A model generated the notes under the pieces. It had not been told where the DNA came from. It saw nothing but the letters and a program-made list of their open reading frames with translations, and ran no database searches. Both the position numbers and the translations under genes were made by a program. Shown one piece after another: positions 30,619-54,245 of a DNA stretch of 64,000 nt (position 1 is its first letter; each line of letters begins with the position of its first letter). The stretch covers positions 6,545,001-6,609,000 of the forward strand of contig NZ_CP015136.1 of the NCBI RefSeq assembly GCF_001618865.1, in the 5' to 3' direction. The stretch is from Luteitalea pratensis (GTDB taxonomy: Bacteria > Acidobacteriota > Vicinamibacteria > Vicinamibacterales > Vicinamibacteraceae).

Positions 30619-31839
30619 TCAAACGTGCTTCAGGACCAGCGCCGAATCGTTGCCGCCGAATGCGAGTGACGTGGAGACGGCGCACGGGACCCGGACCTCG
30701 CGCGGGGAGTTCGCCACGAGATCGACCGGGCACTCCGGATCGGTCGTGTCGTGATGAATCGTTGGCGGAATGCAGCCGCGGTCGATGGTCAGGGCAAGCG
30801 CCGCGGCTTCCATGGCGCCTGCCGCCCCGAGGCAGTGCCCGAGCATCGCCTTGAGCGACGTGACCGGGAGCACGTTTGCGCGGTCGCCGAAGACGACGCG
30901 CACACCGCGTGCTTCTGCCTTGTCGTTCTGCGGCGTCGCCGTGCCGTGCGCGTTCACGTGCGTCACCTCCCCGGCGTTCACACGCGCATCGTCGAGGGCG
31001 GCGCGGATCGTGGATGCAATGGCCTGGCCTTCGGGCTCCGGCGTCGTCGGATGGTACGCCTCGCAGGTGAAGCTGTAGCCCGCCAGTTCCGCGTAGATGT
31101 GCGCGCCCCGCCGGGTCGCGCGTTCCCAGCCCTCGAGCACGAGGATGGCCGCGCCTTCGCCGATGTTCATCCCTTGCCGGCCTGCGTCGAACGGACGGCA
31201 CGGCTGCGGGTCCATCAGGCGCAGGGCATTGAACCCGGCAAACGTCAGCCGCGACAGCGCGTCGGTGCCCCCCGCCAGCGCCGCGTCGAGGCGGCCGCGA
31301 CGAATCGCGTCCACCGCCTGCCCGATGGCGATCGTGCTCGACGAGCACGCGGCCATCAGGCACGACCGCAGTCCCTCCAGCCCGAAATGCGCGGCGACGA
31401 CGTCGACCGGCGTGCTCGAGAAGTGATGGTGTATCCAGGTCGGCCGGGCGCGGTCGATGCCTTCGCGCCGCATCGTGAAGAAGAACGACTCATTGCGCAT
31501 CAGGTCGCCGGTCCCGGCACCGAGCAGCACGCCGACGCGTGCGCGATCGATGCCGCTGTCGAGCAGTCCGGCGTCCTCGATCGCCTCCTCCGCCGCGACC
31601 ACACCCATCATGTCGCTGCGCGACCATCGCCGCCGCTGGTACGGCGTGAACCGCGCCTGCACGTCGGAGAGATCGACCTCGGCCGCGATGCGGCTGCGGT
31701 AGCCGTCCGTTTCGAACAACGTCACCGGGCCGATGCCGCACTGTCCCGCCAGCATGTGTTCCCACACGGCTTCGCGCTGCGTGCCGAGCGCGCAGACCAT
31801 GCCGATGCCGGTGATGGCAATCCGCTTCTGGTCAGACAT
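30619..31839 (-). CDS. Beta-ketoacyl-ACP synthase (KS-alpha, FabF-like) of the polyene locus
   Basis: Condensing enzyme of 406 residues with the full C-H-H catalytic triad: Cys165 (MAACSSST), His298 (VNAHGTATP) and His335 (KAMLGHCLGAAG). It should extend an ACP-bound chain by malonyl units. It is the last gene of a minus-strand series with ACP, ketoreductase and a degenerate KS of the same length, as expected for a KS/CLF heterodimer of type II aryl-polyene synthesis. I chose the Met at 31839 because family proteins begin there. The upstream frame is repeat sequence (a family B REP). Confidence 0.87.
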   Translation of the reverse strand: MSDQKRIAITGIGMVCALGTQREAVWEHMLAGQCGIGPVTLFETDGYRSRIAAEVDLSDVQARFTPYQRRRWSRSDMMGVVAAEEAIEDAGLLDSGIDRARVGVLLGAGTGDLMRNESFFFTMRREGIDRARPTWIHHHFSSTPVDVVAAHFGLEGLRSCLMAACSSSTIAIGQAVDAIRRGRLDAALAGGTDALSRLTFAGFNALRLMDPQPCRPFDAGRQGMNIGEGAAILVLEGWERATRRGAHIYAELAGYSFTCEAYHPTTPEPEGQAIASTIRAALDDARVNAGEVTHVNAHGTATPQNDKAEARGVRVVFGDRANVLPVTSLKAMLGHCLGAAGAMEAAALALTIDRGCIPPTIHHDTTDPECPVDLVANSPREVRVPCAVSTSLAFGGNDSALVLKHV

Positions 31840-31893
31840 CCACTCGCAGGATTGCAGATATTGGCCGAGGACGGTAGCGGCAGTGATCCCGAT

Positions 31894-32103
31894 CCGTCGA
31901 CCTGAAGGTCGACGGCTACAGTCGTCGGCGAAGCCGTCGGACACTACCTCGGGGCGCAGTCGCCGGGTGAACGGGGCAGACTGGAGGCATTCTCCCGCGG
32001 CAGGCCGACTGTAGGCGTCGAGCTTCAGCTCGACGCGCGGATGTCGAGCGACGCCGCAAGTCGAGCATTTGTCAAACGTCGAGCGTTCGGCGTTAGGCGT
32101 TCT
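31894..32103. repeat. Two family B REPs and a heptanucleotide run
   Basis: A minus-strand copy (CCGTCGACC TGAA GGTCGACGGCTAC, 31894-31919) and a plus-strand copy (GTAGGCGTCGAGC TTCA GCTCGACGC, 32011-32036) form an inverted pair. They are followed by GTTCGGC, GTTAGGC, GTTCTTC units that run into the 3' end of the next gene. Confidence 0.72.
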
Positions 32104-35001
32104 TCAGTTGAGGGGTTTCAACAACATGATCTGGACCGTCGTCGAGCCCAGCCCATCGTATCGGCCCGGCAGGAAGCTGTGGCCGACCTCGCCGCGCAGG
32201 AACGCAACGCGGCCCGGAATGCGTAGGTTGAAAGCCACGCCAACCCCCGTCAATGGCTCCCAGGGCACGTCGACGAGACCGGGGACCCCATGTGCGCGGA
32301 CCCGCCCCCACGCCTGATCCACAAACAGGTCCGTGCGGTACTGGTCGAGGAGGTTGAACGAGTACTGGGCGCGCGCCATCGCCAATTCGCCGTAGCGCAC
32401 ACCGGCCGAGGGTACGCCGTGGATCTTCGTGTCGTCGAACAGGCCGAACTGGTACTGGCTGAAGCGATCGAGCCGGTCGCCGCCGAACCACGCGCCGTTG
32501 ACGATGACCTTGCTGAACGGACCGAGGTAGAACACCTTCGTGGCCGAGCCCTGGTACTTCACGTAGGACGCCGGGGTCTGCACTAGCGCGTCCGGCTCGC
32601 CCCACGGCCGCCACGACATGCGGCCCGACCAGGTGCCGTTGGCTGTCAGCGCGTACCCGCCACGCCGGTATTCGTACAGCAGCCCGAATCCGTTGGTCAC
32701 CGTACTCGTCGGGGTGACGTAGCCCGCACTGGTCGTCGAGTCGCGCACGTAGCCATCGAAGCGGCACAGGTACTGTCCCGACACGCGCTGGTAGGTCGAC
32801 GCCTGCCAGCCGAGATTCAGGCCAGTCGACATCGGCCACGTCAGGAGACTCTGCTCCTCGCGTTCGCCACCCGGTCCGAACACGCGATCGGTGGACGGCG
32901 GCGCGATCGCGAAGAAGTCGACTGACGCGTCGATGCGGCCGGCAATCGCCTTCGGCCGCTGGATGTTGCCTGCCGCCAGCACGCCGGCAAACAGCACGGC
33001 CACCTGCGTATCGGAACGGCCCATGAACTTGAAGTTCAGGTAGTTGATGCCGCCGATCGGCAACGGGAATTCGAAGCCGGGATCGATCGTCACGCCCAGC
33101 GCGAGTGCCTTGGCGCGCGTGGTGGCGATGTCGCTCACGACACGCTGGTCGCCTTCCTTGATGAAGTAGCGCACGCCCACGTTCGTGTCGCGGTACATGG
33201 TCTTCTCGCCGCCCCGCGCCTCCTGGCGCTGTCCGGCAAAGTCGCCCGGCGCGACCTCGTAGTCGGTGAAGGTGATACGCCGCTCGACGAGCAGGTTGCG
33301 GCCAGCGATGAGGAACAGTTGCTGGTTGTAGATGCGCGACGGCAGCCAGACCTCCTCACCAGCGGCCGTGCGCACGGGCGAGAAGTCCTGCGTCTCGTCG
33401 TTGGAAATCACCGGTGCCGACAACCCCGTCTGCGCGGCGTGCTGGCGCAGGCGCGCGAACGTCTCGCGATCGATCCACACCGTGCCCCGATACAGCGACT
33501 CGGTGCGCACCTGCGGCTCGAACGCGATGATCCATGCGTTGCGCCCGTTCACCGTGCCGGTGCCCTGCAGGCGATAGCGGTAGCGGGCGTCGAGCTCGAT
33601 GGCCAGCGGAGGCGTCAGCACTTTTTCCGCTTGCAGCAGCGGGAACGGCGGTCGCGGCTCGCCAAAGTGCGCGCCATTGACGCTGAAATCGCGCTCTTCC
33701 CACTCGGTGCCCTCGACGCGATCGACGAAGAAGCGGTTCTCGGTGATCACGTCGAAGCCGGGATCGGTGACCGACGGCCTGAAATACTGCTGGATGCGGC
33801 CGTTCATCACGTAGCGGGGCGACCGCTCGCGCTCGGCAGCCTGGCGCGCCTGGTGACGGGCAAGGATCTCCTCGGCCGACAGCGCCGTCTCGGCGGTGAC
33901 GTCCTCGCGCTGGATGAACCCGGCCTCGGCGCCGCGATTGAAGTCCACCAGCCACGGTCCAGGCCCAGGCAGCACCACCGTCGCCTCCGTCCGCTGCGCC
34001 GCAGCGTCTCGACGCATGCGCAGCGCCGGACGGTCTCGTCCTGTCAGGGGATCACGTACGACGACGGCGCCGGCCGACGGGACCACGAGCGACACATCGA
34101 GGCGATCCTCGCGCGTGGCATCGCCGTCGATCACCAGCAGCGTGCCCAGCGTGTCGAGGTTGTACAGCACTCGCCAGCGGCGCGCCGCGGTCACCTCGGC
34201 ACCATCGGCGTGCACCGAGAGCGCGCCCTCCGCAACGGTGACTGCCACGACGTCGCCTGCATGGACGTCGCGCAACCGGGCTGCCACGGGAAGCACGTCG
34301 CGCACGGCTGTGGCAGACAGCCGATACCCGCGGGTGGTGACCGGGAGGCCGAGGCCTTCGACGGCGTCGGCCAGGAACGTTCGCGCCGCACCGGCATCAG
34401 GCACCACCGCGTCCAGCGTCACCAGTGACGCGCCGGGATCGTGATCGGCGACCCAGGCTGCCGCTGGCAACGGGTCCGCTCCGGGAGCGATGACGTAGCC
34501 GTCGATCGACGGCGCGACGTCCGCAGTGACGACCGCATCGCGCCGATCGCCAGCGGCGGCGCCGCCTCCCAGCACGATAGGGACCGTGGCGGAGCGGGCG
34601 CGAATCTGCGCCGCCGCCACCTTGATCAGGAACGCCGTGCGTCTTGGGTCGAGACCGTCGGCCTGCAGTTCCACGGCCGCGATCGTCGGCACGGCAGCGA
34701 CGATGGCGCGAACGCGATCGGGCCACGTGGCGGGATCAATCGATGCGGTGTCGGTGCCGGCAAGGGTCAGCCAGACCGGCCAGCCGGCCGTGGCAGCGAC
34801 GCGTGCGGCGACCTCGCCTGGATCGGTGGCATCGATCACGAGCCGGGTAGCTCCTGGCAGTTCCCGGGGCTTCGTGGGTACGACACCGCCGTCGATATCG
34901 AAGACGAGGCGCGGCAGTCTCGGCGGCTCACCCTGGCCCGCCGCCGTCGCAGCGAGGCAGACGACGGCCAGCAGCGGCGCGCCAATCAGGCGCGCAGCCA
35001 T
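32104..35001 (-). CDS. Large exported, probably outer-membrane protein of the polyene locus
   Basis: Protein of 965 residues with a signal peptide (LIGAPLLAVVCLAATAAGQG). Residues about 30-330 form an alpha/beta region of glycosidase-like character (LVFDIDGGVVP, VAAVELQADGLD). The second half is rich in alternating hydrophobic and aromatic strands, as in beta-barrel proteins. I do not recognise a named family for the whole chain. It starts at 35001 and overlaps the end of the deacetylase gene by 16 bases, so it belongs to the same operon. A longer in-frame extension upstream would lie over the deacetylase and reads as composition noise. An outer-membrane role in display or export is inference. 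Confidence 0.7.
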   Translation of the reverse strand: MAARLIGAPLLAVVCLAATAAGQGEPPRLPRLVFDIDGGVVPTKPRELPGATRLVIDATDPGEVAARVAATAGWPVWLTLAGTDTASIDPATWPDRVRAIVAAVPTIAAVELQADGLDPRRTAFLIKVAAAQIRARSATVPIVLGGGAAAGDRRDAVVTADVAPSIDGYVIAPGADPLPAAAWVADHDPGASLVTLDAVVPDAGAARTFLADAVEGLGLPVTTRGYRLSATAVRDVLPVAARLRDVHAGDVVAVTVAEGALSVHADGAEVTAARRWRVLYNLDTLGTLLVIDGDATREDRLDVSLVVPSAGAVVVRDPLTGRDRPALRMRRDAAAQRTEATVVLPGPGPWLVDFNRGAEAGFIQREDVTAETALSAEEILARHQARQAAERERSPRYVMNGRIQQYFRPSVTDPGFDVITENRFFVDRVEGTEWEERDFSVNGAHFGEPRPPFPLLQAEKVLTPPLAIELDARYRYRLQGTGTVNGRNAWIIAFEPQVRTESLYRGTVWIDRETFARLRQHAAQTGLSAPVISNDETQDFSPVRTAAGEEVWLPSRIYNQQLFLIAGRNLLVERRITFTDYEVAPGDFAGQRQEARGGEKTMYRDTNVGVRYFIKEGDQRVVSDIATTRAKALALGVTIDPGFEFPLPIGGINYLNFKFMGRSDTQVAVLFAGVLAAGNIQRPKAIAGRIDASVDFFAIAPPSTDRVFGPGGEREEQSLLTWPMSTGLNLGWQASTYQRVSGQYLCRFDGYVRDSTTSAGYVTPTSTVTNGFGLLYEYRRGGYALTANGTWSGRMSWRPWGEPDALVQTPASYVKYQGSATKVFYLGPFSKVIVNGAWFGGDRLDRFSQYQFGLFDDTKIHGVPSAGVRYGELAMARAQYSFNLLDQYRTDLFVDQAWGRVRAHGVPGLVDVPWEPLTGVGVAFNLRIPGRVAFLRGEVGHSFLPGRYDGLGSTTVQIMLLKPLN

Positions 35002-35825
35002 GCCTCGGCGTCCGGAAGCTCGCACAGGGGACCAAATTGCGCGCCTGCCAGGACCTCGCGCAAACGCATGCGGAAGCCCGACAGCCGGTAGTAGTGGGAG
35101 AACGCGAGGGACGCCGGCAGGCGGATGGACGGCGGCGCCGGATCGATCTCCCATGGATGCACTGTAAGGACGGCCGGGTCGCCCTGACGGTTGTTCGCGG
35201 CAATGGCGGCGATGACCGTCGCGGGTTCGGCCTTGCGCAGGCCCCATCCCCAACCGAGCGGCACGGCGTGCCCGGCGAGGTGTCCCACGAGCGGCGGCAC
35301 TTCGAGCAGTGCTCCGGCCACGGTAGCAATCGGATGCGGCCGACGTGGATACGACGGCGACCCGACACGCGCCACGGGCGCCCGGCTGGCGTCGATGCGC
35401 AGTCCTTCTTCGACGAGGATCGGCAACGCCCAGGGCGCGCGCTGGTTCAGGGACCATTCCGGTGCCCGGAACGAGACGATGGGACCGGCACCGGCAGCGC
35501 GCAGCGCGGCGATGTTCAGGCGCAGGTCCTCGCGGAAGCCGTCGGGCGACAGTTCGTAGACCCGGCGATGCCAGTGGCCGTGCAGGCCGATCTCATGACC
35601 GGCATCGCGAATCTCGCGCACCAGTTCGGGGAAATGCCCGGCGACCCACCCGACGATCATGAACGTACCGCGATGTCCTGCCGCCGCGAGGTCCTCGAGC
35701 AACCCGCGCGTCGTCGGCAACACCCGGCTCTCGAGGCCCTCCCAGGCGGAGGACGGCAGCCGATCGTCCACGCCACAGATGTGGAACCAGTCCTCGACGT
35801 CGACGGTAAAGGCGTTGATTGCCAT
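34986..35825 (-). CDS. NodB-type polysaccharide deacetylase (XrtA/PEP-CTERM-associated type)
   Basis: Deacetylase-fold protein of 279 residues without a signal peptide. Motif 1 is FTVDVEDW (residues 6-13) and motif 2 is HEIGLHGHWHR. SFRAPEWSL and the C-terminal TVHPWEIDPAPP match the subfamily with a DUF3473-like end. It should remove acetyl groups from an amino sugar with a divalent metal. It is placed between ACP and the outer-membrane protein, so the polyene may be linked to a glycan (inference). The start codon is embedded in a tandem heptanucleotide run (GGCGTTA), with no Shine-Dalgarno. Confidence 0.85.
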   Translation of the reverse strand: MAINAFTVDVEDWFHICGVDDRLPSSAWEGLESRVLPTTRGLLEDLAAAGHRGTFMIVGWVAGHFPELVREIRDAGHEIGLHGHWHRRVYELSPDGFREDLRLNIAALRAAGAGPIVSFRAPEWSLNQRAPWALPILVEEGLRIDASRAPVARVGSPSYPRRPHPIATVAGALLEVPPLVGHLAGHAVPLGWGWGLRKAEPATVIAAIAANNRQGDPAVLTVHPWEIDPAPPSIRLPASLAFSHYYRLSGFRMRLREVLAGAQFGPLCELPDAEAWLRA

Positions 35826-35964
35826 AACGCCTAACGCCTAACGCCTAACGCTTCACACTTCACGCCTGACGCCTCACGTTCAACCGACTGACGCAGAATG
35901 CCGAAGGCTTCGCACTGTGTGACCAAGCGTCAAGCGTCAAGCGTCTAGCGTCAACCGTCAAGCG
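35826..35964. repeat. Heptanucleotide tandem region between ACP and deacetylase
   Basis: Units CGCCTAA (x3), CGCTTCA, CACTTCA, CGCCTGA, CGCCTCA, then after a short break AGCGTCA (x2), AGCGTCT, AGCGTCA, ACCGTCA, AGCGCTA. It occupies the whole gap between two genes of one operon, up to the deacetylase start codon. Confidence 0.72.
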
Positions 35965-36222
35965 CTAAGCGGTCTTCTTCTGCGTTTCGATGTAATGGGC
36001 GAGCGCATCCACCGACTGCAGCACCTTGCCGCCGGTCTCCTCGTCGCCGATGACGACGCCGAAGGAACGCTCGATCTCGAGCACCAGTTCGAGGGCATCG
36101 ATCGAGTCCAGCCCGAGGCCAGCCCCGAACAGGGGCGCCGCGCTGTCGATGTCGTCGGCCGAGATGGGCAGCTTGAGGGCACGCACGATCGCGGCCTTGA
36201 TGTCGCTACGAAGATCAGTCAT
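35965..36222 (-). CDS. Acyl carrier protein
   Basis: ACP of 85 residues with the phosphopantetheine attachment motif GLDSIDALEL (Ser40). The body is acidic and helical, and it ends HYIETQKKTA. An AAGG five bases before the ATG supports this start over the in-frame ATG 33 bases upstream. It lies 7 bases downstream of the ketoreductase gene. It would carry the growing chain of the polyene. Most aryl-polyene loci have two ACPs; only one is seen here. Confidence 0.9.
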   Translation of the reverse strand: MTDLRSDIKAAIVRALKLPISADDIDSAAPLFGAGLGLDSIDALELVLEIERSFGVVIGDEETGGKVLQSVDALAHYIETQKKTA

Positions 36223-36229: not shown

Positions 36230-36985
36230 TTACACGAGTCCGCCGTCGACGCCAATCACCTGCCCGGTGACGTATGCGGCCGCGTCGGAACACAGGAACG
36301 CCACCAGCTCGGCCACCTCGGCCGCAGTGCCCAGCCGCCCGACGGGGACGTTGCGCACGTGCGCCGCGCGCGTCGCCTCGGGTATTGCCGCGGTCATGTC
36401 GGTCTCGATGAGCCCGGGCATGACCGCGTTGACGAGCACCCCGTTGGGGGCCAGCTCGCGTGACAGCGTCCGGGTCAGCCCGATCAGACCGCCCTTGGAC
36501 GCCGCGTAGTTCGCCTGTCCGGGCAGCCCCGCCACCGCGCTCGGCGACGTGAGGCTGATGACGCGCCCCCACTTCCGGACCAGCATGCCGCGGACCACGG
36601 CTCGCGTGCAGAAGAACGCGCCGTCGAGATTGGGGCGCAGCACGGCGTCCCATTCCGCGCGGTCCATCATCATCAGGTACCCGTCGCGCGCGACCCCGGC
36701 GTTGTTCACGAGGATGTCGACCGGCCCGAGCGCGGCAGAGGCGTCAGCGACGAGGCGCTGGACCTGCGCCTGATCGGCGACGTCGCATGGACCGGCCCAG
36801 GCGCGCGCCCCCGCCGCCGTCAGCATCCGGACGAGGTCGTGTGCCGCGTCCTCGCGTTCTCGATACGAGAAGGCCACCGCCGCGCCGCGACGGGCCAGCA
36901 TTTCGACAATGGCACGGCCGATGCCACGCGATCCCCCTGTGACCAGCGCGACCCGGCCAGACAGGGCAAGCGATTCGTACGGCAC
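36230..36985 (-). CDS. 3-oxoacyl-ACP reductase, FabG-like short-chain dehydrogenase
   Basis: SDR of 251 residues. The NADPH motif TGGSRGIGRA is at about 16-25 and NNAGVARDG at about 90-98. The catalytic Ser is in SLTSPSAVAG, and the Tyr-Lys pair is in NYAASKGG. The C-terminus is the usual ITGQVIGVDGG type (here VTGQVIGVDGGLV). It reduces the beta-keto group in each elongation round. The start is GTG. It is followed by the ACP gene after 7 bases. Confidence 0.92.
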   Translation of the reverse strand: MPYESLALSGRVALVTGGSRGIGRAIVEMLARRGAAVAFSYREREDAAHDLVRMLTAAGARAWAGPCDVADQAQVQRLVADASAALGPVDILVNNAGVARDGYLMMMDRAEWDAVLRPNLDGAFFCTRAVVRGMLVRKWGRVISLTSPSAVAGLPGQANYAASKGGLIGLTRTLSRELAPNGVLVNAVMPGLIETDMTAAIPEATRAAHVRNVPVGRLGTAAEVAELVAFLCSDAAAYVTGQVIGVDGGLV

Positions 36986-37047
36986 GCAGGTCCCATGCGG
37001 CGCCCGGGCGGCGCCGCCGAAAGCACAGTCTATACCAAGGTAGAAGC

Positions 37048-37160
37048 GGGTAACGGGTAACGGGTACCGGGTACCGGGTACCGGGTACCGGGTACCGGGT
37101 GCCGGGTACCGGGTGCCGGGTACCGGGTCGCGGATCGCGGATCGCGGATCGCGGATCGGA
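37048..37160. repeat. Sixteen-unit heptanucleotide tandem array
   Basis: Perfect 7-base phase with a changing consensus along its length: CGGGTAA x2, CGGGTAC x5, alternating CGGGTGC/CGGGTAC x4, CGGGTCG, then CGGATCG x4. It lies upstream of the ketoreductase in a 414-base gap (36986-37399) with no gene. Confidence 0.85.
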
Positions 37161-37208
37161 GACTCGGGTAGGGCGCGGGAATCGGGACTGGGAATTGGTC
37201 TCGGGTTT

Positions 37209-37258
37209 GGTAGGGCCGGCTCTCCGAGTTTGGTAGGGCCGGCTCTCCGAGCCCGGCC
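37209..37258. repeat. Family A REP, one half copy and one full copy in tandem
   Basis: GGTAGGGCCGGCTCTCCGAG stops after the loop and is followed three bases later by a complete copy of the same stem (37232-37258). Confidence 0.8.
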
Positions 37259-37301
37259 TCACCCGACCAACGCTGCGAGATGGCGCCCGGGCATTCGCGG
37301 T

Positions 37302-37358
37302 GCCCGTCTGGCAAGCCCGACGGCTACACCACGCGTAGCGGTCGAGCTTGCTGGACCG
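37302..37358. repeat. Degenerate family B REP pair
   Basis: GCCCGTCTGGCAAGCCCGAC, then GGCTAC, is the minus copy. GTAGCGGTCGAGCTTGCTGGACCG is the plus copy with stem mismatches. Confidence 0.55.
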
Positions 37359-37399
37359 GAACCTCGCGCTCAGAGATGCCGGTGACCCGTGCCGGAGCG

Positions 37400-43686: not shown

Positions 43687-44787
43687 GTGGACCCGGTTTC
43701 GCACCTGATGCTCGGGCGGATGGTCGCGGCCGTACGCACGTCGCGCAATCTGCCACGCGGCGTCGTCGCGGCAACGGTGCTCGGCGGGATCGCTCCCGAC
43801 ATCGATGCCGCGCTGCTGGCTGTCGGATGGGACGTCTATCTGCGATGGCACGAGCTCGGCACGCATTCCCTGGCTGGCACGCCGCTGGTCGCGATCCTCA
43901 CCGCGGTCGTCGTGCGGCCCTGGGTGCCGGCAACGTCGCTCCACGCACTGGTGTGGGCGGCCTGGCTCGGTGCCATGAGTCACGTCCTCTTTGACACCTA
44001 CTCGGGCGCGACGATTCGGCTGCTCTGGCCGATCACGTCTCAACCCTTCTCGATGCCGGTAGTAGCGATGGCCGATCCGCTGGCGATCGGCGTGCTGCTG
44101 GTGGGCGCGCTGGCCCTGTGGGTCTGGCCGCGCCGGCCGCGCACGGCAGCGATGCTGACCCTCGCCCTGCTGCTGGTGATCGCTGCGGTGAAACTGACGA
44201 CGCGGACACGGGCACTGGCCGCCTACGTAACGCATGTCGCCGCCACGGAAACGCTTCCGCAGGAAACTGCCGTCCAAGCCGCCTGGGGATCGTGGCGCGA
44301 GTGGTTCATGTACGACCGGCTGCCGGACGGGACGGTACGCGCGTTTGCCATCGACGGGTGGTCGAAGACCCTGCACCCGCGTTTCTCGCACGACGCGAAC
44401 CGTGAACGCGCATTCGCTCGCGACTCGCTCGCGCAGTTCGCCACCGCGCGCAACTTCGCCCCCGTGTACCCGTTCGCCTTCGCCACATGGCGCCAGACCG
44501 AGGAAGGCGCGGTCGTGTTCTGGTCTGATGCGCGGTTCTGCGGGACAGCGGCCGAGCTCCCCGACCCGCAGGAGGGCGTGCCGCATCAGGACGTCCGCCC
44601 GGCGCGAGGCCCGCTGCGCTGCGCGCTGTGGTTCGGCGGATCCCTCGACGCGCAGGGCCACCCGATCGAAGCACTCGTCTGGCTCGGCGGCCACCTTCAG
44701 CGACGGCCGCCGGGATTGTGGGGGATCGCGGAAAGGATCGAGGACGGAGGAGGGAGGACGGAGGACGGAGGAAGGATCGAGGAATGA
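43687..44787 (+). CDS. YdjM/DUF457-like metal-dependent hydrolase, membrane-bound
   Basis: Membrane protein of 366 residues. The N-terminus carries the YdjM-type signature (DPVSHLMLGRM, GGIAPDIDA, HELGTHSLAGTPL and HVLFDTYSG) with His and Asp residues that bind metal, followed by about four membrane helices. A soluble C-terminal half follows. The final residues (IEDGGGRTEDGGRIEE) come from a heptanucleotide run. The GTG start directly follows the previous stop, so it is the last gene of the plus-strand operon. The substrate is unknown. Confidence 0.8.
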   Translation: MDPVSHLMLGRMVAAVRTSRNLPRGVVAATVLGGIAPDIDAALLAVGWDVYLRWHELGTHSLAGTPLVAILTAVVVRPWVPATSLHALVWAAWLGAMSHVLFDTYSGATIRLLWPITSQPFSMPVVAMADPLAIGVLLVGALALWVWPRRPRTAAMLTLALLLVIAAVKLTTRTRALAAYVTHVAATETLPQETAVQAAWGSWREWFMYDRLPDGTVRAFAIDGWSKTLHPRFSHDANRERAFARDSLAQFATARNFAPVYPFAFATWRQTEEGAVVFWSDARFCGTAAELPDPQEGVPHQDVRPARGPLRCALWFGGSLDAQGHPIEALVWLGGHLQRRPPGLWGIAERIEDGGGRTEDGGRIEE

Positions 44788-46494: not shown

Positions 46495-49400
46495 TCAGAA
46501 ATCGAATTTGACCGCGAACTGCATGCTGCGGTTGTCCACGACCGTGGTCGTGATGCGTCCGACCGTGGGTGAGCCGATCGAGTTGTTCGGGAAGCCGAAC
46601 CCCGGATGGTTGAATAGATTGAACGACTCGATGCGGATCTGCGCGTTCGTGCGCCCACCGAACATGAAGAATCGCTTGACCAGCGACAGATCGAAGTTGA
46701 GGTGCCCCGGCGAGTACAGCACGCCGCGGCCGACGTCGCCGTAGGTATTGGCTGGCGGCGCGACGAAGTCCGCGGGGTTGAACCACAGGTCCACGGTTGG
46801 ATTGTCGAGCTGGCCCGAGCCGGTGCGGTTGGGCCAGCTCGGTGCGCCGTTGTTGACAGGTGCGGCGAGCGCCAAGTTGAACGGCCGCCCGGTAGTCGCC
46901 GTGACGATCGAACTCGTCTGCCAACCGCCGACGATCGCGGCGACCAGCCCGCCCTGATTGAGCCAGGGACGGTTCGGGCCCCACGGCAGTTCATACACCG
47001 AGCTGACGACGGCACGGTGGCGGACGTCGAACCCGGAGGGACCCTTGCCGGCATTCATGTCGGTCACGGTCTGCGGATTCCCGGTCTGGCCGCCACCACT
47101 CGCCGCGGAACCGCCGTAGTCGAGCGACTTGCCCCATGTGTAGCTGAAGAGCAGTTGGAAGCCGTTTGCGTACCGCTGGTTCAGGCGCGTCTGCAGGGCG
47201 TGGAAGGTTGACCTGTTGCGGGGGTCGCACTGGATGATGGTGGCGGCGTTCGACAGCGGTTGGAGCAGGCGCCGCGAGGCTTGCGATCCCGTGCCGGGCT
47301 GCACCTCGTTGGGGTTCCAGCAGAGGACGAGGTGCTTGCCGGCGCTGCCGACGTAGCCGAGCTCGGCGATCAGAGGTCCGAAGAGCTGCCGCTCGACGCC
47401 GAGGTGCCACTGCTGCGCCGACGGGGTCTCGTTCTCGAACCCGTGACCGAGGACGCGTGGATTGGCGGCGTTGAGCTCCGCGGTCGTCTGCGGTTTCACC
47501 TGCTGGATTGGCGGGAAGGGGTTGTCGATTGACCGCACGTTGGCCCAGTTGGTCGGGTTCACCTCCGGGTTCACGTTCTGCGAGATCGTGTAGGGCACCT
47601 GCTGCCCGAGCAGGTTCGAGGCCGACGCAGCGACAGGGAAGTACGTGATCCCGTAGCCGGTGCGCAGGATCGTCCGCGAATCATCAGTGAGTAGATACGT
47701 GAGGCCGAGGCGCGGCGCGAAGTTGTTCTTGCGCGTCTTCAGATTCACCGCGTCGCTCGCGCCGTTCTCCCCGGCGTAGATCAACTGCAGGTTCGCGAGA
47801 TCGAAGTTGACGATGCGGTTCTGCTCTTCGGTCGGCGCCGTGAAGATCTCGTAGCGCAGGCCGGCGTTGACGGTCAGGCGGTTGGACATCTTGAAGTCGT
47901 CCTGCACGTACATGCCGTGCTCCTGCATCCGCAGGTCGTAGGGCTCGAGCAGGAAGCCGCGCGCCGCCGTGGTCATATAGCCGGTGAGCAGGGTCGCCAG
48001 GCCGGTGCCGCCGGCGTTGTTCACCGGGTTGTTCGTGAAGTTGGCATTGAATGTCAGCGTGCTGCGGGTGTCGGTGTTGGTGAACGGCGACGCGTAGCGA
48101 TCCACGAGCCGGTAGCCGAACTTCATCGAGTGCCGCCCCCTCACCCAGTTGAGGCTGTCCTCGATCTGCCAGTGTGTCTGCTTCGGGTTGACCGGCAGGA
48201 AGGCCGGGCCGCCGCTCAGACCGGTGAAATCCTGGACGTTCATGTTCGGGAGGCCGGTCGTGAACTCGGTGATGTTGATGCCCTGGATGCCGAGCGAAGT
48301 CGCCGCCTGCGTGCCGAAGTCCGACTGGAACGTGAATGGCACCGTCCGCGCGTAGCCGCCGCGCAACTCATTGACCAGCGTGTTGGTGATGACGCGCGTG
48401 TAGTTGATGCCGGCGCCCTGCGTCTTGAGGCGCGTGTTCTGGATGCCGGCCACCCACGGCCCGAGGTCGAATCGTGCCGCGGCTTCGGCCGGCGTCTCGA
48501 GACAGCACGCCGCCTGGCCCTGCGGGGCATCCAGCTTGAAGCTGCCCCAGTTGTAGCGGAAGAAGATTGAGTCGCTCTCACCGAACCGGTGGTCGATCCG
48601 GAAGGAGATGTTGTTGTCCTCGGAGACACGGTTGGCCGTGGTGATGTAGTTGTTGAAGTTGCCGGGCTGGTTGGGCAGCGGGTAGATGCTCGCCACATTG
48701 AGCCCAACCGGGTTGATGCGGTTGGCCGGGATGATGTTGCCCGGGAACTGATCGCGCAGGAACTGCGGGTTGTTCGCACTGACGGGAGCACCCGGATTGA
48801 AGGCCGGGTTGGGCCGCGTGCTGAGCGGGTCGTAGATCGGGATCAGGTTGCCGGACGCATTCCGGAAGTTGGAGAAGTCGCCGACCCGCGTCTCGGCCGT
48901 CGGCACGGTGTTGACAAACGCCAACCCCCGCGTCTCGCGCAGGCCCGCGTAATCGAAGAAGAAGAACGTGCGGTTGCGGAAGACCGGCCCGCCGATGGCG
49001 CCGCCGAACTGGTTGCGGTCCAGTGGCGGCTTGGGCGCAAGCGTGGGCAACTTGGCGACGAAGAAATTGCGGGCGTCATACTTCTCGTCCCGGTAGAACT
49101 CGAACGCTGTGCCGTGGAACTCGTTGCTGCCCGACTTGGTGGATACCGACACCACGCCTGCGCCGCGGCCGAACTCGGCCGAGAACACGCCGGTGAGCAC
49201 CTTGAACTCGCGCACCGACTCGACCGAGGGCGTGATGATGACGGTGTTGAACGTGTACTCGTTGTTGTCGATACCGTCGATCAGCCAGCCGTTCGTGTTC
49301 GCCTGATGGCCGAGCGCGTTGAAGTTCGACGCGCCGCGCGGGTTGAACGTGCTCGCACCGGAGAGGTTCTCCCCGGCCTGTCCAGGCGTGACGCCAGGCA

Positions 49401-49875
49401 CCAGATACACCAGCGACGCGAAGTTGCGCGAGTTCAGCGGCAGCTCGCGAATCGCCTTCTCCTCGACCGCCGCGCCGACTTCTGACGACTCCGTTCGCAG
49501 CAGCGGCGCGGTCGCGACAACGATCGTGGTCTCCTCGAGCGTACCGACTTCGAGCTGCGCGTCGACGCGGGCCCGCTGGTTCACTTCCAGCACGATGTCG
49601 CTGCGCACCCATTTCTTGAAGCCCTGCATCTCGACTTCGACGGCATAGGTGCCGGGCACCAGAAACGGGGCCGTGAAGGCGCCGGCATCGTCGGTCACGA
49701 CGGTCGTGGTCGTGCCGCGGTTGACGTTGCGCAGGGTGACGGTCGCGCCGGGCACGACGCCACCGCTGTCGGTGACGGTGCCGACGAAGGTGCCCGCTGC
49801 CACCTGGGCAGGCGCAGGCGCAGCGAGTGCCAGGGCGGCGATGAGGGCAAGAGCAAGCAGACGCGCGACACGCAT
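46495..49875 (-). CDS. Oar-like TonB-dependent receptor with N-terminal carboxypeptidase-regulatory domain
   Basis: Outer-membrane protein of 1126 residues. It has a signal peptide (LLALALIAALALAAPAPAQ), an Ig-like carboxypeptidase-regulatory domain (about 25-105, GTVTDSGGVVPGATVTLRN) and a plug (about 115-245). A 22-strand barrel follows and ends FAVKFDF with the terminal Phe used by the BAM complex. This architecture is expanded in Acidobacteriota, where ligands are largely unknown; oligosaccharides are often proposed. GGAGG precedes the start. It interrupts the polyene locus and probably works with the enolase-superfamily enzyme downstream. Confidence 0.93.
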   Translation of the reverse strand: MRVARLLALALIAALALAAPAPAQVAAGTFVGTVTDSGGVVPGATVTLRNVNRGTTTTVVTDDAGAFTAPFLVPGTYAVEVEMQGFKKWVRSDIVLEVNQRARVDAQLEVGTLEETTIVVATAPLLRTESSEVGAAVEEKAIRELPLNSRNFASLVYLVPGVTPGQAGENLSGASTFNPRGASNFNALGHQANTNGWLIDGIDNNEYTFNTVIITPSVESVREFKVLTGVFSAEFGRGAGVVSVSTKSGSNEFHGTAFEFYRDEKYDARNFFVAKLPTLAPKPPLDRNQFGGAIGGPVFRNRTFFFFDYAGLRETRGLAFVNTVPTAETRVGDFSNFRNASGNLIPIYDPLSTRPNPAFNPGAPVSANNPQFLRDQFPGNIIPANRINPVGLNVASIYPLPNQPGNFNNYITTANRVSEDNNISFRIDHRFGESDSIFFRYNWGSFKLDAPQGQAACCLETPAEAAARFDLGPWVAGIQNTRLKTQGAGINYTRVITNTLVNELRGGYARTVPFTFQSDFGTQAATSLGIQGINITEFTTGLPNMNVQDFTGLSGGPAFLPVNPKQTHWQIEDSLNWVRGRHSMKFGYRLVDRYASPFTNTDTRSTLTFNANFTNNPVNNAGGTGLATLLTGYMTTAARGFLLEPYDLRMQEHGMYVQDDFKMSNRLTVNAGLRYEIFTAPTEEQNRIVNFDLANLQLIYAGENGASDAVNLKTRKNNFAPRLGLTYLLTDDSRTILRTGYGITYFPVAASASNLLGQQVPYTISQNVNPEVNPTNWANVRSIDNPFPPIQQVKPQTTAELNAANPRVLGHGFENETPSAQQWHLGVERQLFGPLIAELGYVGSAGKHLVLCWNPNEVQPGTGSQASRRLLQPLSNAATIIQCDPRNRSTFHALQTRLNQRYANGFQLLFSYTWGKSLDYGGSAASGGGQTGNPQTVTDMNAGKGPSGFDVRHRAVVSSVYELPWGPNRPWLNQGGLVAAIVGGWQTSSIVTATTGRPFNLALAAPVNNGAPSWPNRTGSGQLDNPTVDLWFNPADFVAPPANTYGDVGRGVLYSPGHLNFDLSLVKRFFMFGGRTNAQIRIESFNLFNHPGFGFPNNSIGSPTVGRITTTVVDNRSMQFAVKFDF

Positions 49876-50029: not shown

Positions 50030-51199
50030 TCAACGTCCGTCGAGTCGGAGGCCGGCACTGATGAGCACATTCCCGAACGGCGTGCCCTGGCCCATGGGCT
50101 GCACGTGCGCCTCGAACCCCTCTTCGTGCAGGAGCGTCCGCCAGGCCGTCTGGGACCGGAACAGGAACCGTTGCCGCCAGTGGCCCGTAAGAAATGCCTT
50201 CATCGTGTTGCCGACGCGGACGAGGCGGAAGCGCCAGCCGGCGTCGGCGTCCGCCTCGCGGACCAGCAAGCGGCCCGTGTGCGGCAGCACGGCGCGGATG
50301 GCGCGCAGCAACTCACGTTGGCCGGCATCGGGCATCAGGTGCAGCACATCGAACAGCAGCACGACGTCAGCGGCCGGCAAGCCCGCCGTCCGCCCATCTC
50401 CGGCAACGATGTCCGCCTCGTGCTCCAGCGCCCGCTTCGCGACGCCTGCCACGCGCGGCCGCAACTCCACGCCGACCAGGCGCGTGAACTGCGGCGGATC
50501 GGACCGTGTGGTATCCCATTCGCCCCGCCCGGCCGTGTGTTGGGCCTCGGCCACCAGCGCCAGCATGAGCCCTTGCCCGCACCCGACATCGAGCAGCGTG
50601 CCCGTGGCGGCAGGGAACTCCGCGGCGAGCGCCGCGGCATACACCGGATCGCCGGACAATTTGCCGCGCGCGAACTCCCACGCCGTGATGCCCGAGTCGA
50701 GAAAGCGATCGCTGGCACGCCGGACCAGCAACTGGAAGAACGGATCCTGCGCGGGGCGTCGCGCAGCGTATGTCACGACACCGCCGACGATGCCCACGAT
50801 CAATCCGACGACCACACTGCCGATGACGAGGTCGGTGCCAAAATCCCACACACGACCAGACGTGATCATGTCCCATGACAGGGTGAGCAGGTGACCTCGC
50901 CGGACCAGTGATCCGGCCTGCACCTCGGCATAGAACAACGGCGGCAGGATGAGGGGGTTGATGACGTTGGCGGCGAGGTACATCTTGAGGCGGTTCAGGC
51001 CGAACGCCCGGCCTACCAGCCAGCACAGGCCGAAGTGCACGCCCCAGAACGGCGTGCAGCCGATCATGAGTCCAAGCCCGATCGCGAACGACTCGCGACC
51101 GCGGCTATCGCCCTCGGTCCGCAGGGCATGAATCGCCCGTTGCAGACGCGAGGCGCGAGACAGCGCACGGGCGCTGCCAGCCAACGGAACGGTGGTCAT
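50030..51199 (-). CDS. DUF2062 membrane domain fused to a class I SAM methyltransferase
   Basis: Fusion protein of 389 residues. Residues 1-150 are a DUF2062 domain (GLMIGCTPFWGVHFGLCW, NVINPLILPPLFY) with two to three membrane helices. From about 190 comes a Rossmann methyltransferase: SAM motif I is LLDVGCGQGLMLALV, then LVGVELRPRVAG and VLLFDVLHLMPDAGQ. The placement between the LolA-MMPL genes and the starter-unit genes suggests it methylates the aryl head group, a step encoded in many aryl-polyene loci (inference). The fusion would keep the enzyme at the membrane. A possible -10 lies 6-8 bases before the ATG. Confidence 0.83.
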   Translation of the reverse strand: MTTVPLAGSARALSRASRLQRAIHALRTEGDSRGRESFAIGLGLMIGCTPFWGVHFGLCWLVGRAFGLNRLKMYLAANVINPLILPPLFYAEVQAGSLVRRGHLLTLSWDMITSGRVWDFGTDLVIGSVVVGLIVGIVGGVVTYAARRPAQDPFFQLLVRRASDRFLDSGITAWEFARGKLSGDPVYAAALAAEFPAATGTLLDVGCGQGLMLALVAEAQHTAGRGEWDTTRSDPPQFTRLVGVELRPRVAGVAKRALEHEADIVAGDGRTAGLPAADVVLLFDVLHLMPDAGQRELLRAIRAVLPHTGRLLVREADADAGWRFRLVRVGNTMKAFLTGHWRQRFLFRSQTAWRTLLHEEGFEAHVQPMGQGTPFGNVLISAGLRLDGR

Positions 51200-51229: not shown

Positions 51230-51250
51230 ATGCCGGGTCGCCGTGCAGTG

Positions 51251-52165
51251 ATGCCAAAGATTACCGTCACGACGCCGATCGCACTCGCTCCGCTCGCTCC
51301 CCTGCCACCGTCCTGGGTGGATGCGCTGGTGGGCTCCTCACCAGACATTTCCACGACCAATGCGCTCGATGGCACCGTCGAGGTGCGAACGGGCGCAAAC
51401 TTCACACACGTCGCGATCACGATCCCGGACGCACATGGGCTATCACCGGATCGGCTGCACGAGCACGTGCGCGACGCATATCTTTCGGTAGCGGCCACCC
51501 TCAACGCCCAACGGCGTCACCCCGTGCGGTTCTGGAATTTCGTGCCGCAGATCCATACGCCTTCTGGTCCCGGACTGGATCGCTACATGGTCTTCAACGG
51601 CGGGCGATTTGCGGCGTGCGAGCACTGGCACGGCTCACCGAATGACTTCGATCACACGCTGGCGTCGGCCTCGGGTGTGGGCGTGCTCGGTCGTGCGCTC
51701 GCGATCCATTGCCTGGCCGCCAACAATGCCGGCGAGCCCGTCGAGAACCCACGCCAGGTCCCGGCATACAAGTACTCCCGCCGCTACGGGCCGCGCCCGC
51801 CGTGCTTTGCCCGCGCCACGCAGTTGACGCGCCCGGTGCATGGCGCCTGGTGGCTGCTGGTGGCCGGCACCGCGAGCATCCGCGGCGAACTCACGGTGCA
51901 CGCCGACGACGTCGACGCCCAGACGGTCGAGACGCTGGACAACCTCGATGCACTGCTCGCCGCCGCCGAAACGCGGCGCGGCGCCAGCGATGCCGTCGCC
52001 CGCTTCACCAGCTTGCGCGTCTACATCGTCCGGCCCGACGACCTCGACGTGGTGCGCGAACGCATCGCCGAGCGGCATGGAGACGTGCCGGACATCGAGT
52101 GCGCACAGGCGGAACTGTGTCGTGGCGACCTCCTCGTGGAGATCGAGGGCATCGCAGAACTGTAG
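51251..52165 (+). CDS. Chorismatase (FkbO/Hyg5/XanB2 family), hydroxybenzoate-forming
   Basis: Protein of 304 residues from this ATG (311 from the in-frame ATG at 51230). It shows the chorismatase signature of a RidA-like trimeric fold: HPVRFWNFVPQI, GLDRYMVFNGGRFAA, QVPAYKYSRRYGPRPPCFAR, then LLVAGTASIRGE and the C-terminal AELCRGDLLVEIEG. The family converts chorismate to 3-hydroxybenzoate, 4-hydroxybenzoate or a dihydroxycyclohexadiene carboxylate. XanB2 supplies the aryl starter of xanthomonadin this way. Here it lies next to a hot-dog dehydratase and an AMP-ligase, so the starter of the polyene is probably a hydroxybenzoate. I cannot tell the 3- from the 4-isomer. Confidence 0.85.
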   Translation: MPKITVTTPIALAPLAPLPPSWVDALVGSSPDISTTNALDGTVEVRTGANFTHVAITIPDAHGLSPDRLHEHVRDAYLSVAATLNAQRRHPVRFWNFVPQIHTPSGPGLDRYMVFNGGRFAACEHWHGSPNDFDHTLASASGVGVLGRALAIHCLAANNAGEPVENPRQVPAYKYSRRYGPRPPCFARATQLTRPVHGAWWLLVAGTASIRGELTVHADDVDAQTVETLDNLDALLAAAETRRGASDAVARFTSLRVYIVRPDDLDVVRERIAERHGDVPDIECAQAELCRGDLLVEIEGIAEL

Positions 52166-52260: not shown

Positions 52261-52692
52261 CTACCCTCGCGTTCCGACATCCGCCAGCGTGAGACTCCCC
52301 TTCGCGACGACGACGCCGTCGGCCGTGACCGTGCCTTCGATCTTGAACAGACCGCCCAGGCGGCCCGCGATGCGCGCCGTCGCTTCGAGCAGTACGTCCG
52401 CGCCGCATCCTGCCGGGAAGCGGAAGCCGTCCACTGCGGCGAGCCGCAACGCGTGCGGTCGGTGCGGCTCGCCTGGTCGCGGCGCCCCGGCGGCCAGCCC
52501 GCCGGTCTGCGCCAGCAGTTCGATCAGCACGACCGCCGGCACGACCGGTCGATCGGGGAAGTGACCCTGGAAGTAGAAATCACCCTGTCGGGTCTGGCGA
52601 CGGCACACCGCCTGCACGCCTGGCTCGACGGAGACGACGTCCTCGACCAGGCGCATCGGTGGGGTGTGCGGCAGTAGGGCGAGATACTCCAC
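52261..52692 (-). CDS. Hot-dog fold 3-hydroxyacyl-ACP dehydratase (FabZ/ApeI-like)
   Basis: Single hot-dog domain of 143 residues. The catalytic motif is QGHFPDRPVVPAVVLIE, with His44 and Glu58 as the FabA/FabZ pair; the usual PGV is PAV. It should remove water in each cycle to create the polyene double bonds. Aryl-polyene loci usually have a second dehydratase, which is not found here. The GTG start is 23 bases from the divergent AMP-ligase start. Confidence 0.85.
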   Translation of the reverse strand: MEYLALLPHTPPMRLVEDVVSVEPGVQAVCRRQTRQGDFYFQGHFPDRPVVPAVVLIELLAQTGGLAAGAPRPGEPHRPHALRLAAVDGFRFPAGCGADVLLEATARIAGRLGGLFKIEGTVTADGVVVAKGSLTLADVGTRG

Positions 52693-52715
52693 GGCTTATC
52701 ATCGCCCAGGCGCGC
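52693..52715. promoter_or_regulatory. Compact divergent promoter region
   Basis: Only 23 bases separate the two start codons. TATCAT (52697-52702) is a possible plus-strand -10. GATGAT or TGATAA on the minus strand is very close to the GTG. Confidence 0.35.
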
Positions 52716-54245
52716 ATGACTTCCCTCTCGCCACTTGCCGAGGCCTTCCGGGCCGTGCTGCGCGATCGCCGCAGCGAGGTGCTCGTGATGGCGCCGAGCG
52801 AATCGCGTACGCTCACGGCCCAGGACATCGACACCCAGGCCTGCCACTTCTCGGCTGCGCTGGCGGCCCAGCGGCTGTCGCAAGGCCAACTGGTCGTCAC
52901 CTACATCGGCAACGCGTCGGTGATGCCGGCGCTGGTCCTCGCCTGCCTTCGAGACGGGCTGACGCTGATGCCGGTGGACCGCAGCACGCCGCCGGCCGAA
53001 CTCGTGGCGCTCGCCGCGCGCTGGGATGCTGCGGCCATGGTCCTGCCCGACGGCCTCGATCTTGGCGCCGCGCTGTCGCTCGACCTGACTTGTCCGCCGG
53101 AGCCTTGGCGAAGGCGGAAGGTCGACGGCCACACGAACGATAGCCTTGCTGCGCGCCTACCAGGCCACCACGTGCCGATCGGGCATGGCGTTGCCGCATG
53201 GGTGGCGACGCCGCTGCCTCCACCGGGACGGCACGCGCCCGCGGCCGTGCTCAGGCTCACGTCAGGCAGCACCGGCGAACCTCGTGTGACCTGCACCGAG
53301 GAACGGCATCTGGTCGCCGATGTGGTCCACATCGTCGAGGCGATGGACATCCGGCAAGGCACGAGGCAAATCGGAGTGATTCCCCTCTCGCACTCCTACG
53401 GCTTCGGCAACCTGCTGCTGCCACTGCTCTGGCAGGGCACGCCGGTCCTCCTGCGCCCGCAATTCGTGCCGACGCAGGTCGCGCCCGACATCCGGTCCGC
53501 CGCGCTCGAGACCTTTCCCGGTGTGCCGTTCATGTTCGAGCACCTCGCGCGGCACCAGGACCTGTCGCACCTCTGCTCGCTGCGCCTCGCGGTATCGGCT
53601 GGCGCGCGCCTGAGGTACGAGACGGTGACCGCCTTTCATCGGGCCACGGGCGTAAAGGTGCGATCGTTCTACGGCTCGACCGAGACCGGGGGCATCTGCT
53701 TCGACGGTACGGACCGCCTCGATGAGCGTGTGCCGGTCGGCCATCCCATCGGGGCGACGCGCGTGGAACTCGTGGCTGAGGCAGACGCGCCCGAGGGTTC
53801 CGGTCGCGTGCGCGTGTCCGGACCGAATGTGATCGATCGCTACGCAGGCACTGACGCACCGCACTTCGATGGCGTGTTCCTCACGAGCGACTACGCACGG
53901 GTCGACGCCAATGGCACGCACGTCCTCACCGGGCGCGTGCCCTCCTTCGTCAACGTTGCTGGACGCAAGGTAGTGCCCCAGGAAGTCGAGGCCGCGCTGC
54001 GCGCGCTGCCGGGCGTATCCGATGCGGTGGCCATGGGCGTGGACGATGCGGTGCGTGGCGAGGCGCTCGGGGCGTGCCTCGTGAGCGACGCGGCGTGGGA
54101 CGCGCGCACCGTCCGCGAGGCGCTCTCCAGCCAGTTGGCGGCCTACAAGCTGCCGCGCGTGGTCGTGGTCACCCGTATGCTGCCGCTGACCGATCGGGGC
54201 AAGGTCGATCGTGCCGCCATTGCGCGACTACTCGGGCAGGCGTGA
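52716..54245 (+). CDS. AMP-dependent acyl/aryl-ACP ligase with an in-frame repeat insertion
   Basis: Adenylating enzyme of 509 residues. The P-loop is LTSGSTGEPR (182-190, with Arg where Lys is usual). FYGSTETGG and the hinge TSDYARVD follow, and the catalytic Lys is in LTDRGKVDR near the end. It should activate the hydroxybenzoate starter and load it on the ACP, like ApeH-type ligases. Residues about 124-137 (LTCPPEPWRRRKVDG) are encoded by a family C hairpin inserted in frame between strands of the N-terminal domain. The rest is colinear with the family, so the protein may tolerate the insertion. Confidence 0.86.
   Translation: MTSLSPLAEAFRAVLRDRRSEVLVMAPSESRTLTAQDIDTQACHFSAALAAQRLSQGQLVVTYIGNASVMPALVLACLRDGLTLMPVDRSTPPAELVALAARWDAAAMVLPDGLDLGAALSLDLTCPPEPWRRRKVDGHTNDSLAARLPGHHVPIGHGVAAWVATPLPPPGRHAPAAVLRLTSGSTGEPRVTCTEERHLVADVVHIVEAMDIRQGTRQIGVIPLSHSYGFGNLLLPLLWQGTPVLLRPQFVPTQVAPDIRSAALETFPGVPFMFEHLARHQDLSHLCSLRLAVSAGARLRYETVTAFHRATGVKVRSFYGSTETGGICFDGTDRLDERVPVGHPIGATRVELVAEADAPEGSGRVRVSGPNVIDRYAGTDAPHFDGVFLTSDYARVDANGTHVLTGRVPSFVNVAGRKVVPQEVEAALRALPGVSDAVAMGVDDAVRGEALGACLVSDAAWDARTVREALSSQLAAYKLPRVVVVTRMLPLTDRGKVDRAAIARLLGQA
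53082..53128. repeat. Family C REP inside the AMP-ligase gene
   Basis: CGACCTGACTTGTCCGCCGG, AGCCTTGGCGAAGGCGGAAG and GTCG form a hairpin with CCGCC/GGCGG arms. It is read as Cys-Pro-Pro-Glu-Pro-Trp-Arg-Arg-Arg-Lys. Confidence 0.78.

Follow-up and report, generated by a model that had tools for sequence, protein, structure and literature searches.

In Azoarcus sp. BH72, insertions in arcK and arcT of the arcuflavin (arc) cluster abolished the pigment, and ArcB made 3-hydroxybenzoate (3-HBA) (PMC3949708). The pigment is a hybrid of the polyene and a dialkylresorcinol (DAR), for which Azoarcus has a separate DAR cluster (PMC3949708). Clusters of the arc type are reported, in the accessible part of that paper, from Proteobacteria, Bacteroidetes and one Spirochaete, and in its Table 1 they have a single acyl carrier protein (ACP), the dar genes aside, and lack a thioesterase. 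In E. coli CFT073, which carries the ApeA-R cluster, the starter is 4-hydroxybenzoate (4-HBA) from UbiC (PMC8253772). The aryl polyene ketosynthase (KS) and chain length factor (CLF) structures described in PMC8358021 have a CLF about half the size of the KS. Arylpolyenes in Acidobacteriota appear as genome-mining labels in the available text of PMC8692599 and PMC8841776, and celluxanthene, described in PMC12144888 as the product of an iterative type I polyketide synthase, was set aside as a comparison. The locus considered here lies in the acidobacterium Luteitalea pratensis, within a stretch of 64,000 nucleotides (the window, positions 6,545,001-6,609,000 of a single-contig genome of 7,480,314 bases). 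Read from its genes, it is very probably a type II polyketide locus for a 3-HBA-primed aryl polyene lipid. Its predicted gene set is closer to the arcuflavin and xanthomonadin clusters than to ApeA-R, and the locus is filed as a putative variant of the 3-HBA-primed aryl polyene pathway, not as a member of the ApeA-R group.

The proteins of the genes at 22788-24374 and 25020-55196 of the window were scanned with Pfam and NCBIfam profiles. The components assigned to the locus are as follows, with E. coli proteins written as EcApe.

22788-24374, plus strand: flavin adenine dinucleotide (FAD) enzyme of the tryptophan-halogenase family (g16); PF04820, 43.8 bits
30619-31839, minus strand: elongating ketosynthase (KS); PF00109/PF02801; active-site C-H-H intact
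32104-35001, minus strand: g21, 965 residues; PF17131 at E 0.009, under cut-off; position conserved in relatives
34986-35825, minus strand: polysaccharide deacetylase with DUF3473; PF01522, PF11959; TIGR03006 185.6 of 276.2 bits; position kept
35965-36222, minus strand: ACP; PF00550; DSI phosphopantetheine motif; 46% to EcApeE
36230-36985, minus strand: ketoreductase, FabG/ApeQ-like; PF13561; FlxB model 240.7 of 340 bits; 38% to EcApeQ
37400-38545, frame open to 38722, minus strand: full-size CLF (CLF-like KS); PF00109/PF02801
38688-39341, plus strand: LolA-like periplasmic carrier; PF03548; LolA2_flexi 45 of 125 bits; no BLAST match to EcApeL
39396-41825, plus strand: MMPL/RND-type exporter, ApeM-like; PF03176; 25% to EcApeM, E 1e-7
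41834-42508, plus strand: family 2 glycosyltransferase (GT2); PF00535; 31% to EcApeJ residues 9-222, the N-terminal half
42505-43686, plus strand: LpxL-type acyltransferase; PF03279; 24% to EcApeJ residues 362-550, the C-terminal half, E 7e-6
50030-51199, minus strand: DUF2062 domain fused to an S-adenosylmethionine (SAM) methyltransferase; PF09835, PF13489; LDVGCGQG motif; no BLAST match to EcApeB
51230-52165, plus strand: chorismatase of the FkbO/Hyg5 kind; PF21168; TIGR04444 164.4 of 325 bits
52261-52656, minus strand: FabZ-like hot-dog dehydratase; PF07977; GHFP...ELLAQ, His and Glu intact; no BLAST match to EcApeI/EcApeP
52716-54245, plus strand: adenosine monophosphate (AMP) ligase; PF00501/PF13193; motifs intact; 24% to EcApeH, E 1e-8

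All genes that a first-pass annotation had named between 30619 and 54245, from the KS to the acyltransferase and with the chorismatase among them, are present by Pfam or NCBIfam profile. The actual locus is larger than the annotation had it; the deacetylase and g21, which it did not mention, stand in the conserved block, and g16 lies outside those limits. The characteristic motifs are intact in the KS, ACP, FabG, dehydratase, ligase and methyltransferase, and the dehydratase is one of three PF07977 hot-dog proteins in the whole genome. No second ACP and no thioesterase family was found among the profile-scanned window proteins, the rest of the genome not having been sought, and the same proteins include no third, ApeR-like KS. 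The two former absences had been noted in the first-pass annotation as odd; they stand, even though they are no oddity, the arc clusters being alike in the accessible part of PMC3949708. The gap between FabG and the CLF (36986-37399) holds short repeats and, in six frames, no missed hot-dog or thioesterase candidate. The CLF probably starts about 75 bases further upstream than annotated. The sole Pfam match of g21 is the sub-threshold LolA-like stretch, and g21 is a probable periplasmic or outer-membrane protein by prediction. An AlphaFold model of g21 and a predicted CLF structure, each built from three sequences, have predicted local distance difference test (pLDDT) values of 37 and 30, too low to use.

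Gene content, gene order, conservation, active-site residues and the KS/CLF phylogeny suggest a scheme whose reactions, anchor, product and colour are all predictions. The chorismatase would convert chorismate to 3-HBA, which the AMP-ligase would load onto the single ACP. The KS-CLF pair would then elongate the chain with malonyl units, each round being followed by FabG reduction and FabZ-like dehydration, and the double bonds would remain conjugated because no enoyl reductase is seen in the gene set. The DUF2062-methyltransferase would methylate the ring hydroxyl, a probable O-methylation, and g16 might halogenate the product. GT2, the deacetylase and the LpxL-type acyltransferase would join the chain to a sugar-lipid anchor, while the MMPL exporter and LolA would move the product to the outer membrane. 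The product would most likely be a yellow membrane-anchored pigment; the genus name Luteitalea means 'yellow rod'. A standard carotenoid desaturase was tried as another source of yellow colour. The genome has 16 CrtI-family matches, the best at 77.7 of 238.1 bits and none over the cut-off, so there is no standard carotenoid desaturase that could explain a yellow colour; 4 of 14 control genomes passed the cut-off in this search, in which other carotenoid genes were not sought.

In common with the Azoarcus arcA-X and xanthomonadin clusters, as far as these are described in PMC3949708, the locus has a KS, a KS-like partner, one ACP, a ketoreductase, a dehydratase, an AMP-ligase, a chorismatase, a methyltransferase, a polysaccharide deacetylase (arcN), LolA, an exporter, a glycosyltransferase and an acyltransferase; g16 is a candidate counterpart of the arc halogenase. 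The partner encoded by arcJ is described there solely as an N-terminal KS domain, whereas the Luteitalea CLF is full-size. The arc cluster has two dehydratases, while one is seen here, and the available description, in which two arc genes are unannotated, names no DUF2062-methyltransferase or g21-like gene (PMC3949708). The phylum is also different from that of the Azoarcus and Xanthomonas carriers.

The polyene-DAR hybrid of Azoarcus, with its separate DAR cluster, and the FlxB score of FabG would both suit a flexirubin- or arcuflavin-like polyene ester with a DAR in place of the sugar-lipid. Such an ester has an outside chance in Luteitalea, since GT2 and the acyltransferase are retained in the locus and none of the scanned window genes was recognised as DAR-type, darA/darB not having been searched for elsewhere in the genome. 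Of the flexirubin features, FabG and LolA are sub-threshold on the NCBIfam Flx and LolA2 models, and there is no ammonia-lyase starter gene in the window; the single PF00221 match in the genome is at 5.10 Mb, some 1.5 Mb off.

The KS and its partner have distinct active sites. In the partner, all three catalytic residues are gone, with the catalytic Cys replaced by Glu, one His by Ala and the other His by Glu. In the orthologs aligned (13 of 14), Glu-310 is invariant and Glu-137 nearly so. The alignment spans the whole KS length and BLAST gives no match to the half-size EcApeC; the partner is a full-size chain length factor, as judged from these residues. In the Protein Data Bank (PDB), 9s5h/9s5i are the best match of the KS and the second best of the CLF. 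They share a full-size partner with an altered active site; that partner matches the CLF at only 175 bits, just under a FabF.

Two trees place these proteins, and neither contains Xanthomonas or Azoarcus sequences. The first (52 rows of KS, CLF, FabF and Ape sequences, the long EcApeC row included) has the cluster KS as one group and the cluster CLF as another, both apart from FabF. The second tree, whose root is arbitrary, has 55 rows, 10 of the earlier 52 having been dropped and 13 added. In it, a group of 24 rows supported at 100/98 unites eight Luteitalea-type KS, seven other acidobacterial KS, seven Planctomycetota KS parts, EcApeO and the ApeO-like protein of genome G230. The FabF rows form a single group in both trees (97/96 in the first and 99/95 in the second), with the cluster KS and CLF outside it; a fall of the two among primary-metabolism FabF, which would have told against the first-pass reading, is not seen. 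By this phylogeny, the predicted KS belongs to the aryl polyene (ApeO) lineage and not to FabF.

Features in common with E. coli CFT073 ApeA-R are the KS lineage (ApeO), by BLAST the ketoreductase, ACP, AMP-ligase, MMPL exporter and GT2/acyltransferase, and, by profile, the type of LolA. Nothing corresponding to the half-size ApeC, second ACP, ApeR, thioesterase ApeK, LolB-like ApeN or ApeG was found in the window genes scanned, and BLAST at E 0.01 gives no match to ApeA, ApeB, ApeC, ApeD, ApeG, ApeI, ApeK, ApeL, ApeN or ApeP. ApeJ is one protein in E. coli, while GT2 and LpxL are separate genes in Luteitalea, and the E. coli starter comes from UbiC (PMC8253772), whereas Luteitalea has a chorismatase inside the locus. 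A canonical ApeA-R cluster with lost parts and a 4-HBA starter would account for the grouping of the KS with ApeO, the likeness of the ACP to ApeE and the matches of GT2 and LpxL to the two halves of ApeJ. That origin is improbable in view of the full-size CLF, the lack of BLAST matches to ApeC and most Ape proteins, a deacetylase and a g21 that match no E. coli Ape protein by BLAST, and the Hyg5-type residues of the chorismatase; a truer Ape-type set also exists in another acidobacterium, at locus L103. The hydroxybenzoate-primed polyene lipid of the first-pass annotation is thus kept in so far as the KS groups with ApeO and the set is conserved, and given up in so far as an ApeA-R set was meant.

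The chorismatase aligns with Hyg5 (5ag3) at 124.7 bits and with FkbO (4bps) at 107.1 bits. Its G149, G213 and C297, positions transferred by a constant offset, are residues of the CH-Hyg5 subfamily as given in PMC7170507, while FkbO has Ala at the last two. G213 and C297 occur in all 42 aligned homologs, that of the window included. Position 149 varies, with Gly in the four genus members and Ala in the four other Vicinamibacteria. This pattern favours 3-HBA as the predicted product, with the warning in PMC3949708 that what a chorismatase makes cannot be told from an alignment by itself.

Conservation was followed in 149 Vicinamibacteria genomes, that of L. pratensis included. Although the CLF finds a match, in most cases FabF, in 146 of them, the CLF orthologs form a distinct top group in 14 genomes, with 44-100% identity as against at most 39% below. 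The chorismatase matches at E 1e-10 in eight genomes, and it occurs together with a CLF ortholog in seven (P = 9e-8, relatedness ignored), on one contig in six of these. The eighth, G037 (78% complete), carries g21 on the contig of its chorismatase and has no CLF match. The order KS-g21-deacetylase-ACP-FabG-CLF, with LolA-MMPL-GT2-LpxL on the opposite strand, recurs at the levels of genus, family and order. Exceptions are G121, in which FabG is not at the expected place, and G026, in which FabG and the deacetylase are not; several of the 14 CLF-bearing loci are cut by contig ends. The locus is found in four of five genus members, and in these four the chorismatase lies between the methyltransferase and the dehydratase/ligase, the order being kept. 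The co-occurrence in relatives on which the first-pass annotation made its reading depend is seen, with the order largely kept across genera.

Outside the genus, a PHP-domain gene, which is not there in Luteitalea, stands between g21 and the KS in G112 (L050:5952-6920, by Pfam) and, by sequence likeness, at the same place in G070, G116, G103 and G121. A gene for a B12-binding radical SAM protein adjoins the MMPL exporter in G112 (by Pfam) and G116 (by likeness).

Beyond the class, a chorismatase match at E 1e-8 is present in 26 of 347 Acidobacteriota genomes. The stretches around 20 of the 26 were compared; G000, G063 and G026 were known separately, and G231, G296 and G433 were left out. Six of the 20 have a KS and a full-size CLF nearby, and one has an E. 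coli-type set of ApeO, ApeC, ApeJ and ApeK. The acidobacterial locus L103 (G230) combines, in one stretch, ApeA, ApeK, ApeJ, ApeG and ApeO, a weak ApeC match, a chorismatase and a g16 homolog at 40-41%. Two short patterns, run against named genome contigs, picked out 16 chorismatase loci. In eight Planctomycetota loci, seven of which were placed in the trees, the KS and CLF form one open frame of 747-852 residues. The fused gene sits beside a chorismatase in L063, L065, L068, L070, L071, L072, L075 and L076, and L066 is cut by a contig end. In L063, L065, L068, L070, L071 and L075, a halogenase-family gene and an AMP-ligase then follow, and five of these six have an MMPL exporter, which was not seen in L068. 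A plasmid search for the chorismatase, aimed at a named xanthomonadin-type cluster, returned 11 records, including two from a single organism; in no case was 80% of the query covered.

Several observations weigh against a 3-HBA-primed aryl polyene locus. A chorismatase alone is no polyene marker: in 13 of the 20 acidobacterial stretches neither a KS nor a CLF was seen within some 10 kb, and no KS is annotated near the three plasmid loci opened, in a collection whose gene tables are incomplete. A chorismatase match is missing from seven of the 14 genomes with the CLF, and in the fifth genus member, G109 (94% complete, 830 contigs), both genes are absent. The TIGR04444 score of the chorismatase is half its cut-off, and the best NCBIfam model of both the KS and the CLF is fabF (395 and 233 of 493.75 bits). 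Pairwise BLAST puts the KS slightly closer to EcApeR (181 bits) than to EcApeO (166 bits). The first tree leaves the placement of ApeO unresolved (28/42), and the second omits EcApeC, KS_G121, the CLF of G103, G112, G116, G121, G123 and G136, FabF_L033 and FabF_L036; in it, the composition of EcApeO and of several CLF rows was marked by the program as unusual. The full size of the CLF differs from the aryl polyene CLFs described in the available part of PMC8358021, and LolA, the dehydratase and the methyltransferase have no BLAST match to their E. coli counterparts. In the literature consulted, no description of the Luteitalea locus was found, nor any colony colour or chemistry.

The CLF-bearing genomes without a chorismatase, and the many chorismatases without a KS or CLF nearby, would fit a polyene or polyunsaturated lipid built on a different starter, non-aryl or otherwise, with the chorismatase at work in a separate pathway. 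This is quite improbable: the chorismatase keeps its position in the four genus members, it follows the fused KS-CLF gene together with the halogenase-family gene and the AMP-ligase in the six Planctomycetota loci, and two relatives that lack it carry an aromatic lyase gene. A chance neighbourhood of fatty-acid and envelope genes, to which the two strands and the interruptions might point, is highly implausible given an order conserved across genera, a KS and CLF that are not FabF, and the CLF/chorismatase overlap. The 3-HBA-primed aryl polyene lipid remains the preferred reading.

In the two relatives with a lyase, G121 and G112, no chorismatase match was found. In G121, an aromatic-amino-acid-lyase fragment and an AMP-ligase directly adjoin LpxL, while in G112 a complete lyase and an AMP-ligase lie about 8.5 kb beyond the methyltransferase. 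The nearest model for the G112 lyase (PF00221) is histidine ammonia-lyase, at 408 of 539 bits and under the cut-off, and the label of tyrosine lyase was not adopted for that reason. A PF00221 gene occurs at some place in 10 of 15 genomes, so only the location of the lyase argues for a link to the locus, and a swap of the starter gene from chorismatase to aromatic-amino-acid lyase is at most suggested. Around the lyase and AMP-ligase of G112 (contig C76, L049), inspection of the sequence shows genes like a BadF/HgdC-type activase, a 2-hydroxyacyl-CoA dehydratase and a B12 radical SAM protein.

The halogenase-family protein g16 has the motifs GxGxxG, WTWLIP and FxxPxxSxG. In Luteitalea its gene lies 6.2 kb from the KS, with three genes between, while in G136 and G123 the homolog is directly beside the KS. 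A match at E 1e-20 occurs in 10 of 35 genomes searched. Identity is at least 55% in six, all CLF-bearing (G000, G063, G068, G087, G136 and G123), the other eight CLF-bearing genomes having no match this close, and the same search gave no match in any of the 14 genomes of the class without a CLF ortholog among those searched. A homolog was obtained from 16 of 17 sources, with WxWxIP in 13 of the 16. The protein is a probable late tailoring enzyme. Since curated halogenase models score far under their cut-offs (76.8 of 900 bits on NCBIfam CmlS), halogenation is a guess, its chances being put at about even.

Three further genes lie between LpxL and the methyltransferase, the first of them counted with the locus.

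43687-44787, plus strand: YdjM-family membrane protein; PF04307; present in family members G063, G068, G087, G070 and G116
44912-46312, minus strand: enolase-superfamily protein, sugar-acid dehydratase-like; PF13378; outside the pathway
46495-49875, minus strand: TonB-type/outer membrane protein receptor; PF25183; outside the pathway

The last two had been taken in the first-pass annotation as splitting the locus, which does not hold as a property of the locus. No match to the TonB receptor was found in the locus regions of G063, G068 and G087, and none to the enolase-superfamily gene in the 15 regions compared from relatives. The distance from the CLF to the chorismatase, start to start, is 8.4-9.5 kb in G063, G068 and G087 as against 13.8 kb here. 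Since both genes are absent from these three other genus members with the locus, the pair looks like an insertion outside the pathway. G068 has a bile-acid-symporter-family gene at the insertion place, and G116 has other insertions, including another kind of TonB-type gene that separates GT2 from LpxL. Insertions are evidently tolerated in the locus.

Eight of the 23 tandem repeat arrays in the window have 7-bp units, of differing sequence.

Period-7 arrays: 20888-20925, 22752-22777, 35825-35878, 35924-35964, 37047-37128, 37124-37158, 43455-43576, 44740-44776

Six of these are intergenic and two lie at gene ends, where they probably lengthen the C-terminal tails of the LpxL-like (43455-43576) and YdjM-like proteins. 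Among the relatives, arrays of this period are present in the stretches of G063, G068, G087, G070, G116, G103 and G134; that of G112 has none. A 15-bp unit is repeated 19 times with 97% match at 27336-27623, between a gene ending at 27284 and one starting at 27635.

A tentative wider picture, considerably less secure than the assignment of the locus, is that Acidobacteriota and Planctomycetota have a separate branch of aryl polyene synthases with a full-size CLF. The starter module would be exchangeable within one conserved locus (chorismatase in Luteitalea, aromatic-amino-acid lyase in G121 and G112), and the KS and CLF would have fused in Phycisphaerae and other Planctomycetota. The Luteitalea product might then be a new 3-methoxyphenyl polyene glycolipid, perhaps halogenated, behind the yellow colour of the genus. 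In E. coli, the aryl polyene is reported to increase protection against oxidative stress and to contribute to biofilm formation (PMC8253772, in its accessible part). Since the locus is nearly complete and conserved in culturable acidobacteria, the role of such a pigment in soil bacteria would be testable. The full-size and fused CLFs are natural variants for studying the control of chain length, and the apparent exchange of starter genes may make the choice of starter readable from sequence.

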